DNA of 64,000 nt. Origin: Candidatus Micrarchaeaceae archaeon. Its GTDB lineage: Archaea; Micrarchaeota; Micrarchaeia; Micrarchaeales; Micrarchaeaceae. This document shows positions 9,867 through 28,418 of the stretch, piece by piece. Under the pieces are notes generated by a model. The model did not search any database, was not told the origin of the DNA, and saw nothing but the letters and a program-made list of their open reading frames with translations. How positions within the stretch are numbered: position 1 is the stretch's first letter; each line of letters opens with the position of its first letter. The stretch is from contig DAIDAC010000002.1 in assembly GCA_027310825.1 (NCBI GenBank), positions 62,001 through 126,000 on the forward strand, given 5' to 3'. A program made the translations under genes and the position numbers.

Positions 9867-10337
9867 ATGCACATAATAGTAGGTATCGATCCAGGAAAGA
9901 CATCTGCAGTAGCATGCCTCAACCTTTCTGGAGAGCTGTTGTACTCTTCTCATGCAGCATACGCCGGACTCGATTGGATAGTCGACGAGATAAAGAGCAT
10001 AGGAATTCCATCCATCATAGCCTGCGATAGGCAGCCTGGAGAGATGGCGAGGAAGATTGCCGCTTCTTTCAATGCAAAGCTGTTCAGTCCAGAGAAGGAG
10101 ATGACTGTTCTTGAGAAGCGGGAGGCAGTAAGGAAGTTCGACCTCAGGAATCCGCACGAGCGCGACGCATGCTCAGCGGCCATCAAGGCTTACAACTCAT
10201 ACGCCAACAAGCTCAAGCAGGCAGAGCACATAGCAAAGAGCAAGAACATAGGAGAGATAGACCAGATAAAGTCAAAGGTAATCGAGAAATACTCCATAGA
10301 CGAAGCGATCCGTGGAGAGCAGGCGAACAGGCGATAA
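9867..10337 (+). CDS. DUF460 N-terminal domain, RNase H-like predicted nuclease
   Basis: 156 residues. The first strand HIIVGIDPGKTSAVACLNL with Asp in DPG, and later ACDRQPGEMA and DLRNPHERDACSAAIKAY with acidic residues, match the RuvC/RNase H-like domain of archaeal DUF460. Full DUF460 proteins are much longer with coiled coils and a C-terminal domain; this one has only the nuclease-like domain and a short lysine-rich helical tail. Its stop precedes the exonuclease III ATG by 1 nt, pointing to a shared role in DNA processing. Confidence 0.65.
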   Translation: MHIIVGIDPGKTSAVACLNLSGELLYSSHAAYAGLDWIVDEIKSIGIPSIIACDRQPGEMARKIAASFNAKLFSPEKEMTVLEKREAVRKFDLRNPHERDACSAAIKAYNSYANKLKQAEHIAKSKNIGEIDQIKSKVIEKYSIDEAIRGEQANRR

Positions 10338-10338
10338 C

Positions 10339-11091
10339 ATGCTGCGTTTTCTTTCATGGAATGTCAACGGCGTAAGGAGCGCGCTGAAGAAGGACCTTGC
10401 AACGATAATAAAGTCTAACGAGTACGACGCGATAATGATGCAGGAGATAAAAGCGGACGTGATGCCTCAGCTGCTGGGGTCGAAGTATTATTCTTACATG
10501 TTTCCCGCGCAGAAGAAGGGATACAGCGGAGTCATGTCGCTGGTGAAACAGAAGCCGATCAACTACATAAAAGGAATCGGCATAGAAGAATTCGACAACG
10601 AAGGGCGTGTGCAGGCTCTCGAGTACGATAAATATTTTCTTGTCAATGTCTATTTCCCGTCATCAAGGCGCGACCTCTCCAGGCTTGATTACAAGGTAAG
10701 GTTCAACGATGCGCTTCTTCCATTTCTGAAACAACTTAGAGAGAAGAAACCCGTTGTGCTGACCGGAGACTTCAATGTTGCGCACACCGAAGACGACATC
10801 GCGCGGCCGAAGGAGAACGACGGCAACGCAGGTTTCACAAAACAGGAACGAGAATGGTTCGACAACCTTCTCAAGAGCGGTTATGTCGACACGTTCAGGC
10901 TTTTCAAGCAGGGCAACGGGCACTACAGCTGGTGGCTTTGGGCGTTCGACGTCCGCGAGCGAAACATAGGATGGAGGATAGACTACTTTGTTGTGTCAAA
11001 GGAACTGGAGAAGAATGTAAAAGGCGCAGAAATACTAAAAGAGGTCAACGGCTCAGACCATGCGCCTGTCGTCGTTGAACTTGCGATTTGA
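10339..11091 (+). CDS. xthA: Exodeoxyribonuclease III / AP endonuclease
   Basis: 250 residues, full length for the ExoIII family. Catalytic motifs are in order: FLSWNVNGVRSALKK (Asn7 class), MMQEIKAD (metal-binding Glu), VLTGDFNVAH (Asp and Asn), GHYSWW, GWRIDYFVV and VNGSDHAPVVVEL (Asp-His). The enzyme nicks DNA 5' of abasic sites and starts base-excision repair. It fits with the AlkA-like glycosylase elsewhere in this window. The ATG is 1 nt after the DUF460 stop, so translation is probably coupled. Confidence 0.93.
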   Translation: MLRFLSWNVNGVRSALKKDLATIIKSNEYDAIMMQEIKADVMPQLLGSKYYSYMFPAQKKGYSGVMSLVKQKPINYIKGIGIEEFDNEGRVQALEYDKYFLVNVYFPSSRRDLSRLDYKVRFNDALLPFLKQLREKKPVVLTGDFNVAHTEDDIARPKENDGNAGFTKQEREWFDNLLKSGYVDTFRLFKQGNGHYSWWLWAFDVRERNIGWRIDYFVVSKELEKNVKGAEILKEVNGSDHAPVVVELAI

Positions 11092-13241: not shown

Positions 13242-13316
13242 GCTCCCCTCGTCTAGCTCGGTCAAGGACATAGCCCTCTCAAGGCTAAAACTCGGGTTCA
13301 AATCCCGAGGGGAGCA
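13242..13316 (+). tRNA. tRNA-Glu(CUC), integration target
   Basis: Acceptor GCTCCCC/GGGGAGC, anticodon stem TAGCC/GGCTA with loop CTCTCAA (anticodon CTC, codon GAG), T stem CTCGG/CCGAG with TTCAAAT loop, discriminator A, 75 nt. A TATA-like TTTTAAATATTA lies about 30 nt upstream. Its last 11 nt, CGAGGGGAGCA, recur at 18566-18576 and 20195-20205, and an integrase gene begins 75 nt downstream. Confidence 0.92.
13306..13316 (+). repeat. Left attachment core within tRNA-Glu 3' end
   Basis: CGAGGGGAGCA is the 3' half of the T stem plus the acceptor strand. The same 11 nt end both downstream segments. As with many tyrosine recombinases, the element would rebuild the tRNA 3' end on integration. Confidence 0.7.
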
Positions 13317-13390: not shown

Positions 13391-14593
13391 ATGCCTTACA
13401 TGGAAGACCAGGCGACTCTTGATGGCGTGTTTGCGCGCGTGACGGAAGACCCAATGTTGTCCAAACAGAATGCCGAATACATCAGGGCGCATATCGAATT
13501 TCTGAAGGCGAAGCAGTCAAACATCAGGACGCAGATCAAGCATCTATACCACATAAGGAGGTTCTATAGGCTTCTAAAGAATCCGAAGAGGGACTTCAAG
13601 CAGCTTACTAGAGAGGATATGCAAGCTGCCACGGCGAGAATGGAAGATACAGAATACGGGACGGAAACCAAGAGGAACATCAAAGTAGTTGTCAAGTATT
13701 TTTGGAAGCACCTCAAAGGTGAGGACGAGTTCTATCCCGCAGAAGTCAGGTGGATTAAAACGTCAGGGGACAAAAAGGATAGGAAGATGCCCGAAGATCT
13801 ACTTACCGAAGAAGAAATCAGAAGAATGATAGAGTCTGCAACCACGCTCAGGAACAAGGCAATAATAGCAATCTTATACGACACAGGATGCAGGATAGGC
13901 GAATTGCTCAATGTGAGAAAGAAGGATGTAAACCTAAGCACTACGCCGGCGCACGTTCTATTGGACGGTAAAACGGGCCAGAGACAGGTTCCGGTCATAT
14001 TCAGTGCGCCTTATGTGGCACAGTATCTAAACTTCATAAAGGAAAAGAAGCCGAACGAGCCACTATGGACTTCATACAACAACGGCAAAGATACTGATAG
14101 GAAGGCCGATTACAGAGGCATATCAAAGATGCTTAAGGTAACGGCGAAGAAGGCGAAGATAGAGAAGAGGGTGCACCCGCACCTATTCAGGCACAGCAGG
14201 GCTACTTCATATGCCAACAAGCTCACAGAACAGCAGCTAAAGAATATGTTTGGATGGACCAACAGCTCTACTATGGCAGCTACTTACGTGCATTTAAGCG
14301 GAAGGGACATAGACAGCGCAGTGATGCAGGCGAATGGGCTAAAACCGCAGGAGGCCACAACAGAAACCAGATTAAAAGCAAAGATGTGCCAAAGGTGTCA
14401 ATTTCAAAATACTATGGACTCGAAGTACTGCAACAGATGCGCTCTGCCCCTTGACCCTGAACTGGCAATGGAAGTGCAGAGCAAGGAATCGGATGTGAAA
14501 CAAGCGGTCGCAGAGGCCCTGAAGGACCCGAAGGCGATAGAAGACATAGTACATGCGTATCTTTTGATGCAAGCGAAGAAAGGGAAGAAATAG
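13391..14593 (+). CDS. Tyrosine recombinase (integrase) with zinc-ribbon tail
   Basis: 400 residues. An N-terminal SAM-like core-binding domain (about 10-125) is followed by the catalytic domain: Arg in DTGCRIGELLNVRKKD, HPHLFRHSRAT carrying the His-x-x-Arg, the second conserved position at Trp in FGWTNSSTM, and the nucleophile Tyr in AATYVHLSG. A C-terminal zinc ribbon follows (CQRCQFQNTMDSKYCNRC) and then a helical tail. TATA-like AGCTATATAAAG lies about 25 nt before the ATG. It is the likely integrase of the surrounding element at tRNA-Glu. Confidence 0.9.
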   Translation: MPYMEDQATLDGVFARVTEDPMLSKQNAEYIRAHIEFLKAKQSNIRTQIKHLYHIRRFYRLLKNPKRDFKQLTREDMQAATARMEDTEYGTETKRNIKVVVKYFWKHLKGEDEFYPAEVRWIKTSGDKKDRKMPEDLLTEEEIRRMIESATTLRNKAIIAILYDTGCRIGELLNVRKKDVNLSTTPAHVLLDGKTGQRQVPVIFSAPYVAQYLNFIKEKKPNEPLWTSYNNGKDTDRKADYRGISKMLKVTAKKAKIEKRVHPHLFRHSRATSYANKLTEQQLKNMFGWTNSSTMAATYVHLSGRDIDSAVMQANGLKPQEATTETRLKAKMCQRCQFQNTMDSKYCNRCALPLDPELAMEVQSKESDVKQAVAEALKDPKAIEDIVHAYLLMQAKKGKK

Positions 14594-14811
14594 CGGCAAC
14601 TTTCTGATAAAACTCTTTTCCAAAGAGTTTTGCGGTATTCCATCGCAAACAAAAGAATCGCGTATATCGCTGTTATTGCGTAAATTAGCGTATTCAGATT
14701 TAGGCGGTAGACTACACTGCTGATATACAGCACTCCGATTATGAACAAAAGGATGAAGACATGGTCTATTATGGAAAGCCTCGCGCTTTTCGTGAAACTA
14801 GACTGCTTCAT
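14404..14811 (-). CDS. Small membrane protein, antisense overlap with integrase 3' end
   Basis: Up to 135 residues. ATG 14811 has a clear TATA (CCTTATATATCTCC, about 14834-14847) giving a near-leaderless message. The first 65 residues are convincing: a basic start, then two hydrophobic segments (HVFILLFIIGVLYISSVV; TLIYAITAIYAILLFAM) and a basic cluster. The rest runs antisense to the last 190 bp of the integrase and looks like non-selected sequence, so the true 3' end may have shifted or decayed. Function unknown. Confidence 0.5.
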   Translation of the reverse strand: MKQSSFTKSARLSIIDHVFILLFIIGVLYISSVVYRLNLNTLIYAITAIYAILLFAMEYRKTLWKRVLSESCRYFFPFFACIKRYACTMSSIAFGSFRASATACFTSDSLLCTSIASSGSRGRAHLLQYFESIVF

Positions 14812-17869: not shown

Positions 17870-18049
17870 TCCAACACAGTAACATTTCCTACCGAGTGTA
17901 TTTATGCGTTTTGTGCTGTGGCCCTTTTCTCCCTCCGCTCTTTCCCAAAGAGCCGAGCCCCTTTTCCTTTAAGCAATGTTCCTATGCTATGCGCTCCGAC
18001 CAAATTCACCCCTCACTCCGTTCGCCCCCTCTTTGGTCTACGCTTACTT

Positions 18050-18242
18050 AACTTCTTGAAAAGAAGTTTAATCAAGAATGACGGAGCTCACAAGCGAGCC
18101 AGAGGACCCGTATTTTCCACTGGGAAAATTACCTTTCGCCGCTAGGCTCAAGGTACCCGTGCCCTCTGGCTCGCAGCAGGGGTGTGGGAGGGGTGTATGA
18201 CACCCCTCTCCTTCAGCACCCACCCCTGTGCTCGCTCCGTCA
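18050..18242. ncRNA. Structured element, copy 1 (five nested stems plus leading hairpin)
   Basis: A leading hairpin AACTTCTT/AAGAAGTT (18050-18068) is followed by P1 TGACGGAGC/GCTCCGTCA (18079-18087 with 18234-18242). Inside P1 are P2, a 12-bp GCGAGCCAGAGG stem (18094-18105 with 18163-18174), and P5 CAGGGGTG/CACCCCTG with an inner hairpin AGGGGTGT-ATG-ACACCCCT. P2 encloses P3 (ATTTTCC/GGAAAAT) and P4 (TACCTT/AAGGTA). Strand and function are unknown; it could act as RNA or as folded DNA. No plausible protein is encoded here. Confidence 0.6.
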
Positions 18243-18244
18243 AA

Positions 18245-18419
18245 ATCTTCTTAGGAAGAAGGTCAGCCAAGAATGCAGAGGCTCGCTGCGCGCCAGAGGA
18301 ACCCTATTTTCCGCTTAGGAAAATTAGCCTTTCACTTCGTTCAGGCTACCGTGTCCCTCTGGCTCGCACCCCCCGTGTCAGAGGGGTGTATGACACCCCT
18401 CGGGGTGCTCGCCTCTGCA
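18245..18419. ncRNA. Structured element, copy 2, stems covary with copy 1
   Basis: Same layout: leading hairpin ATCTTCTT/AAGAAGGT, P1 TGCAGAGGC/GCCTCTGCA (18274-18282 with 18411-18419), P2 GCCAGAGG/CCTCTGGC, P3 ATTTTCC/GGAAAAT, P4 TAGCCT/AGGCTA, P5 CACCCC/GGGGTG with the identical inner hairpin. P1 differs from copy 1 at four pairs and all four stay paired; P4 differs at two, both still paired. A third degenerate start (GAAAAGAAGTTTTACAAGAA, from about 18461) follows. Confidence 0.6.
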
Positions 18420-18560
18420 AAAACTTTTTTTAGCCAGGAGTTCCCTGCGGTCAGCTCGCCGAAAAGAAGTTTTACAAGAAAAGGGGGCTGCGTTCAAGGA
18501 TAACAACCAATATCAATTAATACGGCTTAATATCATCAAAGCACTCGCAAATTCTCACAC

Positions 18561-23677: not shown

Positions 23678-25437
23678 TACACGCCCCTCTTCGACATCTT
23701 CTTTATCGCAACTATCTTCTTAAGCAGTTCCTTTTCGTTGTCGTCCAGCAAATTGGCGAAGTTCCCCTGAAGGAGCCGTTCGTCGCCGTCAGTAACCCTT
23801 GTGTAAAGCACCATGTTCTCCTTGACCTGTCGTCCAAGCGTTGGCCCATCTACTGATATCGCAATCTCATCGCCCTTCTTGGCCATGTCGATCTTGCTTT
23901 TGTCTCTCTGTATCTCCTTGATTTTTCCAACTATCTCTCCAGTTTCGTTTATGAGTGTGTATCCAGGCTTTATTCTTCCGCCGATTACTTCAACTCCGAA
24001 CACGGCCGGGTTTGAAACTCTGAAGAACGAGTTCGGCAGCGCCTTTACTGCTCCTGGGAATACTGTGCTGCTCTCCACTTTTCCGACTATGTTCTTCCTT
24101 TTGTCTTCAATGAACAATTTGTAGTCGTCAAGAAGTTTGTAGATGATTGTTCCCTGTATCACTTTTACTCCGCTGCTCTGCTCCGCCTCTTTCGCTTCTT
24201 CGTCGAGCTGGACGTTGAACGCCAGCACAACCGCGTTGAGAGGCTCTGTTGCGTTTAACGTGAATGCGTCAAGAATGTCTCTCTTCGTGACATTGCCTAT
24301 TCCCTTCTTGCTTATCCCAAGCCCTGCGCTCTTCAGCAGTCTTGATATTGCTTCTAGGCCGCCGATCGAATCCGCTTTCAGTATCACTCCCTTCTTGTCT
24401 GTGTCAAACACTTCGCTTATCTCGGATATGATGTCTTTTTCGTAGTTGTCGTCTACTATTTGCACTATTGGAGAGCCAGGCATCGCCTCTTCAAGCCCGT
24501 TTCCGCTGATCTTTATCCCGCTTGCCGCGCTGGCGAAGTCAACGTTGTAGAACTTTGACGATGACTCTCTGATTTCCTGGAGCGGCCTTGGCTTCAGCAG
24601 AGCCTTTATCTTTGCGACTTGCACCTTTCCCGCTGCGTTTGCGAACGCGATGTTGTCATTCACTCTCAGTGTGCCATCGTAAAGCACTACATCTATTGTC
24701 ATTCCCAATCCGCGAACCTCTTTCTTCTCGAGAATGCTTCCCTTTCCCGGTCCGTTGACCTCGATCTTCAGCTCAGCCTCCAAAAATCTCTGCGCAAGCC
24801 CTGTCACCATCATCAGAAGCTCAGCCAATCCTTCTCCTGTCTTCGCGCTGATAGGAACTATCGCAAGCTCCTTCTTGAAATCCTTCACGTTGTTGAAAAG
24901 TTCGCTTGTGAAACCCAGCTCGCTGAGCTTTCCTATCATCTGGTACATCCGGTTCTGGAATTCCTCTTGGACGTAGGCATTCTGCGTCTTCAGCGACGCC
25001 ATCACGCTGTTGCTCTTGCTGTTTATCCAACCTGTCACGAGGTCGACCTTGTTGGCCGCGACTATGAACGGCGTTTTGTACTCCTTCAGTATTTCTATCG
25101 CCTCTATCGTCTGCGGCTCGAAACCCTTGGATATGTCGACGACAAGTATTGCAATGTCTGCCACGCTGCCTCCTCTCTTTCTGAGGTTTGTGAACGCTTC
25201 GTGGCCTGGCGTGTCTATGAAAAGCAGTCCAGGAAGAGTGATCTTGGCTCCTGTATTCTTCATCATCGGCCCTACTATCTTCTCTATCGCGTCGATAGGG
25301 ACTTCGCTTGCCCCTATGTGCTGGGTTATGCCTCCGGCTTCCCTTGCCGCGACTGTGCTGCTCCTTATTTTGTCGAGAAGGGACGTTTTCCCGTGGTCAA
25401 CGTGCCCCATCACAACTATTATCGGCTGCCTTATCAT
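23677..25437 (-). CDS. infB: Translation initiation factor aIF5B (IF-2-like)
   Basis: 586 residues from ATG 25437 (MIRQPIIVVMGHVDHGKTSL). G motifs: GHVDHGKT (G1), GGITQHIGA (G2), FIDTPGHEAF (G3), AANKVDL (G4) and ISAKTGEG (G5). Domains II-IV follow, ending in the aIF5B C-terminal domain. It is a GTPase that joins ribosomal subunits and promotes initiator tRNA binding. A TATA (TGTATAAAGAC, about 25457-25467) and a GTGAGG site precede the ATG; GTG 25446 is an alternative. Length is typical. Confidence 0.95.
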   Translation of the reverse strand: MIRQPIIVVMGHVDHGKTSLLDKIRSSTVAAREAGGITQHIGASEVPIDAIEKIVGPMMKNTGAKITLPGLLFIDTPGHEAFTNLRKRGGSVADIAILVVDISKGFEPQTIEAIEILKEYKTPFIVAANKVDLVTGWINSKSNSVMASLKTQNAYVQEEFQNRMYQMIGKLSELGFTSELFNNVKDFKKELAIVPISAKTGEGLAELLMMVTGLAQRFLEAELKIEVNGPGKGSILEKKEVRGLGMTIDVVLYDGTLRVNDNIAFANAAGKVQVAKIKALLKPRPLQEIRESSSKFYNVDFASAASGIKISGNGLEEAMPGSPIVQIVDDNYEKDIISEISEVFDTDKKGVILKADSIGGLEAISRLLKSAGLGISKKGIGNVTKRDILDAFTLNATEPLNAVVLAFNVQLDEEAKEAEQSSGVKVIQGTIIYKLLDDYKLFIEDKRKNIVGKVESSTVFPGAVKALPNSFFRVSNPAVFGVEVIGGRIKPGYTLINETGEIVGKIKEIQRDKSKIDMAKKGDEIAISVDGPTLGRQVKENMVLYTRVTDGDERLLQGNFANLLDDNEKELLKKIVAIKKMSKRGV

Positions 25438-27707: not shown

Positions 27708-28418
27708 TTATAAATAAGCCTCAGAGGGGAATTGAACCCCCAACCTATTGCTTACGAAGCAATCGCTCTGCCATTGAGCTACTGAGGCATTAAGCCTGAA
27801 TAAGTCTGGATATATACGCCCAAGTCTATAAAGATGATTCCAATTAGAGAAGCCAATCTTCTTAAGGTATAGTTCAACTTGCTCTTTTCCGTTTAAATAA
27901 AGATAAGTGTTGGCTATTGTCTCTATTTCACATTTTGGATTAAATCCTTTAGTTATCAAAATGTCATGTATTTGTGAGATTAGTCCTGCATTTCTCATGT
28001 GTAACGCAATTCTTGGATATGGGGTGACGTAAGCTACTCTTTTGTCAAAAGAAACACAACCGTCTGTATCAACTATTCCCCTAATGCAACATCTAGTCAG
28101 ATCCCAATCGGCAGATATCTTATCTGGTATCTTCACAGTTGCATGTTTGCTTCTTCCAGTTGGCATTCCAAGTTCTTTTAACTCGTCGACGAACTTTTTG
28201 TTACAGATTCTAAACTTGAGTCCTCTGCTGTGAACAAATATCCTTGGGTTATAGTTCAATTCTCTTGACACGATCGGCACAAGTCTACGCGTGAAATAGT
28301 CATAATCGTTGATCGGGTTTCCTGTCATTTCAACCCAAGAATGCTTTTTGGTAGAATATATGTTACCGTCGCCTATTATCGCACCTATAAACTCACACAT
28401 ATCTGGTGAAAGCTCCAT
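27708..28418 (-). CDS. LAGLIDADG homing endonuclease, reading frame running through tRNA-Thr
   Basis: 236 residues. The two LAGLIDADG helices are FIGAIIGDGNIY (about residues 10-21) and CIRGIVDTDGCVSF (about 111-124), each with its catalytic Asp. The C-terminal domain ends near LKKIGFSNWNHLYRLGRIYP. Beyond that, residues about 210-236 are the sense translation of the tRNA-Thr gene (27717-27788), and the stop codon falls 8 nt past the tRNA 3' end. The tRNA TATA box (about 27809-27818) lies inside the endonuclease codons. Whether the whole ORF is translated is unknown. Confidence 0.7.
   Translation of the reverse strand: MELSPDMCEFIGAIIGDGNIYSTKKHSWVEMTGNPINDYDYFTRRLVPIVSRELNYNPRIFVHSRGLKFRICNKKFVDELKELGMPTGRSKHATVKIPDKISADWDLTRCCIRGIVDTDGCVSFDKRVAYVTPYPRIALHMRNAGLISQIHDILITKGFNPKCEIETIANTYLYLNGKEQVELYLKKIGFSNWNHLYRLGRIYPDLFRLNASVAQWQSDCFVSNRLGVQFPSEAYL
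27717..27788 (-). tRNA. tRNA-Thr(CGU)
   Basis: Acceptor GCCTCAG/CTGAGGC, D arm GCTC/GAGC, anticodon stem ATTGC/GCAAT with loop TTCGTAA (anticodon CGT, codon ACG), T stem GGGGG/CCCCT with loop TTCAATT, discriminator U as in other archaeal tRNA-Thr. 72 nt, no intron and no CCA. The whole gene overlaps the 3' end of the homing endonuclease frame on the same strand. Confidence 0.92.

Follow-up and report, generated by a model that had tools for sequence, protein, structure and literature searches.

In the window, that is, the whole 64,000-nucleotide stretch of DNA analysed here, a first-pass annotation had described a tandem, non-coding element whose two copies keep a common fold while differing in sequence. 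This locus raises the question of whether such a block has relatives, what carries it, and whether the molecule that folds is RNA or DNA. As discussed below, the block is one member of a genuine and new family of structured, modular elements carried by mobile genetic elements (MGEs) of Micrarchaeota.

Extent and fold of the element

The structured unit spans positions 17991-18489 and thus exceeds the 18050-18480 proposed initially, because it also takes in a hairpin at the 5′ side (17998-18038) and, at the 3′ side, a module that ends with AGGGGGC (18482-18488). All its parts are given here on the + strand, in the order Pa-R-core1-R-core2-Pz-3′ end. In Pa, which could be aligned in 11 homologues, GACCAAA (17998-18004) pairs with TTTGGTC (18032-18038), and its loop holds GCCCCCT (18024-18030), which pairs with the terminal AGGGGGC to form a pseudoknot. 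The first R module follows at 18050-18078 (AACTTCTT-GAA-AAGAAGTT plus TAATCAAGAA). Core 1 (18079-18242) is closed by P1 (18079-18087/18234-18242), and contains P2 (18094-18105/18163-18174), P3 (18113-18118/18123-18128), P4 (18130-18135/18150-18155), P5 (18176-18182/18223-18229) and an inner hairpin at 18188-18209. A second R module (18247-18273; CTTCTT-AGG-AAGAAG GTCAGC CAAGAA) separates it from core 2 (18274-18419), with P1 at 18274-18282/18411-18419, P2 at 18288-18299/18356-18367, P5 at 18368-18372/18402-18406 and the inner hairpin at 18380-18401. Finally, the R-like module Pz (18422-18480; AACTTTTTTTAG ... CGAAAAGAAGTT plus TTACAAGAA) is present in all complete homologues.

The two copies recognized at first (18050-18245 and 18246-18426) do each adopt the fold P1(P2(P3,P4),P5), with z-scores of -8.72 and -5.22, respectively. 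A shuffled-sequence control, which the first-pass annotation had named beforehand as a check on its claim, leaves that claim standing: equally good folds were obtained in 0 of 200 dinucleotide shuffles for either copy. The differences that it had listed are also present in the sequence. P1 remains paired despite its changes (TGACGGAGC/GCTCCGTCA in copy 1 and TGCAGAGGC/GCCTCTGCA in copy 2), P4 changes in a compensatory manner (TACCTT versus TAGCCT), P5 reads CAGGGG in one copy and CACCCC in the other, and the inner hairpin AGGGGTGT-ATG-ACACCCCT is the same in both. What had been taken for a third, degenerate start at 18461 is instead the closing arm of the 3′ module, which occurs in every complete homologue, and there is no third copy.

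The aligned elements share a common plan. In the 5′ part, hairpin Pa is followed by hairpin Pb and then CAAGAATG. In the middle, P1 encloses P2 (with P3 and P4) and P5, and P1 is followed by an A-rich spacer of about 3 nt in every core of the alignment. The 3′ part consists of hairpin Pz, then CAAGAA, and an end, GGGGGC, complementary to the Pa loop. Two unpaired segments, CAAGAATG and CAAAA, are also kept among homologues.

Describing the locus as a tandem element proved too simple, since the arrangement is R-core-R-core-R′, the cores are unequal and the leader is a module that also occurs in tRNA introns. Core 2 shares 95% identity with the core of a homologue from another genus (G145) and 74% with core 1. 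Because it is nearer to the former, simple tandem duplication does not account for the copies, and recombination at R probably brought the two together. Such a composite origin weakens the comparison of the two copies as a record of their history, while covariation is unaffected. Modules also occur in a shuffled arrangement at L048 and L061.

Homologues and covariation

Complete or partial copies of the element occupy 11 loci, spread over 10 genomes of Micrarchaeota that all belong to one order: the window genome (G000), G013, G070, G084, G088 (two loci), G089, G092, G096, G132 and G145. They come from a DNA search of 100 relatives, from a screen of the GTDB species genomes for shared 20-mers (nine stretches, eight from Micrarchaeota and one from Clostridia, the latter taken as chance) and from a covariance model built on the 5′ module, which was applied to 164 genomes within the order and to 301 within the phylum. 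The covariance-model search of archaeal genomes, which the first-pass annotation had proposed, did yield homologues. Its matches that score under 41 bits consist mostly of an R module and nothing else, and among the 301 phylum genomes it placed the element nowhere beyond those 10 genomes. No copy was found in IMG/VR by exact pattern or by two protein-based scans, nor in INPHARED or PLSDB by blastn. The source genome measures 975 kb, and the nearest homologues are in Candidatus Micrarchaeota MAGs. In line with the earlier suspicion that no described family has this plan, Rfam 15 at gathering thresholds gave only tRNAs in the window; when thresholds were relaxed, a search of five loci with homologues returned two weak matches to snoRNAs (E = 0.15 and 2.1), neither of them placed on the element.

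The expected covariation was also found, with a score well above shuffled and slid controls. For instance, the Pa stem appears as GCCCAA/TTGGGC, GCGCAA/TTGCGC, GCACAA/TTGTGC and GACCAAA/TTTGGTC, and both sides have changed in four of its seven pairs (11 homologues). On alignments made by the tool itself, two-sided changes affect 17 of 42 pairs in the cores, whose score lies above all 500 shuffles and all slid registers, and 5 of 21 pairs in the 5′ module, where 8 of 500 shuffles equalled the count, and neither a shuffle nor a slid register equalled the covariation score. The pseudoknot, a long-range pairing over about 290 nt, covaries in L037 (TAACCCCT/AGGGGTTA), in L023 (GCTCC/GGAGC) and, with one G.T pair, in L014. 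Its permutation test gave 8 of 20000, a value that is optimistic because the segments were chosen by eye.

The mobile-element context

The link to mobile DNA, proposed from the window alone, is borne out by a fixed place in six MGE loci (in G013, G084, G088, G089, G096 and G145). In these, the element begins 10-20 nt past the stop codon of a conserved gene of about 76 aa, on the same strand, and this gene is usually preceded by one of about 50 aa that resembles ribbon-helix-helix (RHH) proteins, an assignment made by eye and with no Pfam match. Among the products of the host MGE are a tyrosine integrase and a membrane ATPase of the HerA/FtsK type; an AbiV-like protein is part of the cargo that separates the element from the ATPase, and DNA methyltransferases are nearby. 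In the window, the integrase gene (13391-14593, + strand) adjoins a tRNA-Glu (13242-13316), and its product is 85% identical to the integrase of G006, which lies beside RHH and 76-aa genes, and 52% identical to that of the element-bearing MGE of G084. The remnant of a HerA/FtsK-type ATPase N-terminus (14404-14811, - strand) matches the 605-aa ATPase of L011 with 36% identity over 94 aa (E = 1e-11). No attR copy of the tRNA-Glu end was found in the window.

Related MGEs that have the 76-aa gene in G006, in G159 and at a second locus of G084 (G084:C8) lack the element, which is thus accessory. Decayed copies are present in chromosomes (L014, L023, L015 and L097). The search for empty sites corresponding to chromosomal copies gave no clean one; near 1430-1500 of L097 (G096:C4) there is a decayed 3′ end of the element where G092 (L013) holds a full one.

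The cargo of element-bearing MGEs is of a defence type, comprising an AbiV-like HEPN protein, DNA methyltransferases, a Vsr-like nuclease and a putative restriction gene; the nuclease and restriction assignments come from sequence only. Relative to the element start and in its orientation, these genes lie at 10116-10856 and 4512-6848 in L011, at 11723-12700 in L010 and at 411-767 in L012. Elsewhere in the window, a LAGLIDADG-like open reading frame (27708-28418, - strand; Pfam E = 0.0019, below the cut-off) overlaps a tRNA-Thr (27717-27788) with its 3′ end.

The R module in tRNA introns and at RNA ends

The R module is far more widespread than the element. Its pattern, AACTTCTTNNNAAGAAGTTTNATCAAGAA, has 75 matches in 50 of the 164 genomes of the order, and the reversed control has none. 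Over 29 nt, the first R of the window matches tRNA-Thr introns in two other genomes of Micrarchaeota (G017 and G042) without a single difference. R lies within full-length tRNA models (108-119 nt spanning R) in at least 15 genes (L016-L020, L028, L106, L110, L116, L119, L123, L124 and L126-L128), and these tRNAs are complete once R is removed, as expected of introns of the bulge-helix-bulge (BHB) type. In other cases it is in the T-loop (L117/L021 and L133). R is also found 3 nt past the 3′ ends of tRNA-Ala genes and 2 nt past the 3′ end of a 16S rRNA, as if it marked the ends of these RNAs; the loci with R at 2-3 nt from such an end are L125 (near 1498-1529), L104, L105, L107, L112, L113 and L115. 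At RNA genes, its orientation is always that of the RNA's own strand.

In R, the tail copies the bases with which the 3′ strand of the stem begins, AAGAA following CTTCTT and AAAAG following ACTTTT, and this match holds in other stem sequences (21 versus 5.1 expected by shuffling). R thus holds two mutually exclusive pairings.

Several observations concern the spread of R. Near-identical R-hairpin introns of about 40 nt in Thr, Arg and Ala isotypes form a spreading intron family of Micrarchaeota. In L118 (1447-2349), R interrupts a pilin-like gene in its N-terminal part, where it lies in frame and is flanked by imperfect direct repeats of about 14 bp (QSAME-...-QSAMEYL), which suggests mobility. 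A tandem array in G150:C22 (L063/L065, near 24861-25029) consists of units of about 40 bp, each with an R-like hairpin. In addition, a conserved, structured-looking sequence, GCTGAGGGAAATTTAGGCGACAAACCCGCAAGCGGGTCTGGGTG..., follows tRNA-Ala and R in several genera (L105, L107-L109, L111-L114 and L130); the example in L105 has no Rfam match.

R might be a hairpin that moves back and forth between the non-coding cassettes of MGEs and the RNA genes of their hosts. In the latter it would turn into an intron for the splicing endonuclease or into a signal for the ends of tRNA and rRNA, and the MGE element would be the reservoir that gives rise to the tRNA introns of Micrarchaeota. We consider this scenario possible but rather unlikely.

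RNA or DNA

The first-pass annotation had deduced selection on folding from the compensatory changes. The family and its covariation are supported, whereas the changes do not establish selection on folding as RNA, as G-U pairs are at about 2%, against 10-14% in tRNA and SRP RNA. In curated alignments, G-U accounts for 8 of about 690 cells (1.2%) and A.C for 9; by alifold, G-U reaches 2.3% in the element versus 14.4% in the SRP RNA of the same genomes under the same treatment, and in the tRNAs of carrier organisms it is 10.5%. Hence, the element has neither the G-U frequency of a structured ncRNA nor an excess of G-U over A.C, and the equal rarity of the two pairs indicates no strand preference. 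It is known that template switching during replication yields paired changes without G-U intermediates, and that it makes and repairs perfect stems (PMC8794818). The changes seen here fit this process, so that compensatory change alone is no proof of RNA selection, and the scarcity of G-U makes DNA template switching or a folded-DNA function a serious alternative. Because its pairing contrasts so strongly with that of the SRP RNA and tRNAs in these genomes, the element is a clean test case for RNA selection versus DNA template switching. Unpaired-base composition gives no signal as a strand test, SRP RNA likewise not being purine-rich by the same method, and no conserved promoter was recognized by eye at the element. 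The pseudoknot, the constant place and strand, and the link of sense-strand R to RNA ends moderately favour RNA.

Our preferred explanation, which we hold tentatively and with somewhat less than even confidence, is that the element is a transcribed, modular, MGE-borne ncRNA cassette; that it is transcribed, that it is processed at R and that it serves the MGE are inferences from the above. The cassette would be accessory to a family of integrating Micrarchaeota MGEs, and its + strand would be read together with the small upstream MGE genes. A compact pseudoknotted fold, made by the Pa loop with the 3′ end, would enclose one core, or two in the window, each core being predicted as a closed multi-branch structure followed by the A-rich spacer and then by the R hairpin. 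As this layout is the same as that at tRNA and 16S rRNA 3′ ends and in tRNA introns, R is most likely a processing or protection signal. R may set the ends of folded cores, and R-to-R recombination could swap or add cores, as in the window. The perfect Watson-Crick stems might arise from hairpin-prone DNA that is corrected arm-to-arm by template switching, in addition to selection for the fold.

Alternatively, the element could be a folded DNA site of the MGE, for instance a replication or transfer origin, or a packaging or cargo-recombination site, that works as single-stranded DNA or a cruciform, probably with the - strand folded. The pairing chemistry described above agrees with this, as do the GCTNCGC loops, which are enriched (26 versus 2.3 expected) and on the - strand read as C(GNA)G, of the d(GCGNAGC) type, a class of DNA mini-hairpin loops with extraordinary stability (PMC4686876). 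Moreover, a gene for an RHH-like DNA-binding protein adjoins the element and a HerA/FtsK-type ATPase is encoded, as near transfer or partition sites, and the element separates the MGE backbone from variable cargo (AbiV-like protein and methyltransferases). However, no relaxase or HUH initiator was found among the MGE proteins scanned, a subset of open reading frames of which many had no assignment. Some related MGEs do without the element, R is in sense orientation at RNA ends, and an origin has no need for its ends to pair in a pseudoknot. We regard a DNA site as the main rival, somewhat less likely than an ncRNA. It is less likely still that the element is a selfish mosaic of palindromic repeats, similar to REP or MITE sequences and functionless for the MGE, with compensatory changes produced by template switching rather than by selection on the fold. 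The dispersal of R, including arrays and the pilin-like gene, the shuffled modules, the perfect stems and the decay of chromosomal copies would all be expected of such a mosaic. Nevertheless, it would have to account for the way in which the element always follows the same gene, and in one orientation, in six diverged MGEs, for conserved unpaired segments, and for pseudoknot covariation over about 290 nt, which is hard to produce by arm correction.

An IS200/IS605-type end, a PATE or an omega-RNA-like element served in trans by TnpA/TnpB is very improbable. A hairpin with a trailing tetranucleotide-like motif recalls such ends, and Y1 transposases occur in 14 of the 22 genomes checked; yet none was found in eight carriers of R or the element (G000, G013, G048, G017, G042, G027, G051 and G055), R is absent at the ten Y1 loci checked, and no TnpB gene was noticed next to the element. 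On these grounds, a Y1 transposase link, whether of the IS200/IS605 or the REP-RAYT kind, was rejected.

Relation to known systems

GOLLD, ROOL and HEARO are large, multi-branched, non-coding structured RNAs of phages and mobile elements. The Micrarchaeota element is likewise large, multi-branched, pseudoknotted and MGE-borne; unlike them, it measures about 300 nt, is confined to one archaeal order, has few G-U pairs and matches nothing in Rfam. Integron attC and oriT are folded single-stranded DNA sites. With them the element shares its place downstream of a small gene's stop, structure kept over sequence, adjacent cargo and a nearby RHH-like gene, but it has five to eight helices in about 300 nt and occurs once per MGE, no relaxase was found, and attC hallmarks were not seen. 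REP/BIME and the double-hairpin elements of fungal mitochondria are mobile palindromic repeats. R resembles both in being a short mobile hairpin with a conserved tail, perfect stems and paired changes, and differs from them in sitting within a conserved, pseudoknotted architecture of 300 nt and in the lack of a Y1 transposase in several carriers.

Among the side results, we value most that the leader is identical to tRNA introns. In Thermoproteales, transposed BHB introns of like sequence occur across different tRNA genes and positions (Fujishima 2010, as reviewed in PMC4033280). R spreads similarly over tRNA genes and positions across Micrarchaeota, which is consistent with the broad specificity of the ARMAN splicing endonuclease (PMC12397907). 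Unlike those introns, R is also found in the MGE element, in the 3′ flanks of tRNA and 16S rRNA and in arrays, and the available parts of both sources (PMC4033280 and PMC12397907) describe no link of such introns to an MGE element or to RNA flanks. The review calls for snapshots of archaeal tRNA intron insertion events (PMC4033280). A mobile cassette with a leader that is letter-identical to a tRNA intron of a same-family species bears on how these introns are gained and moved, and the sharing of R may tie mobile DNA to their origin.

Lastly, other genera of the family hold another class of large elements, rich in palindromes, which likewise start with R (L025/L050 and L054).
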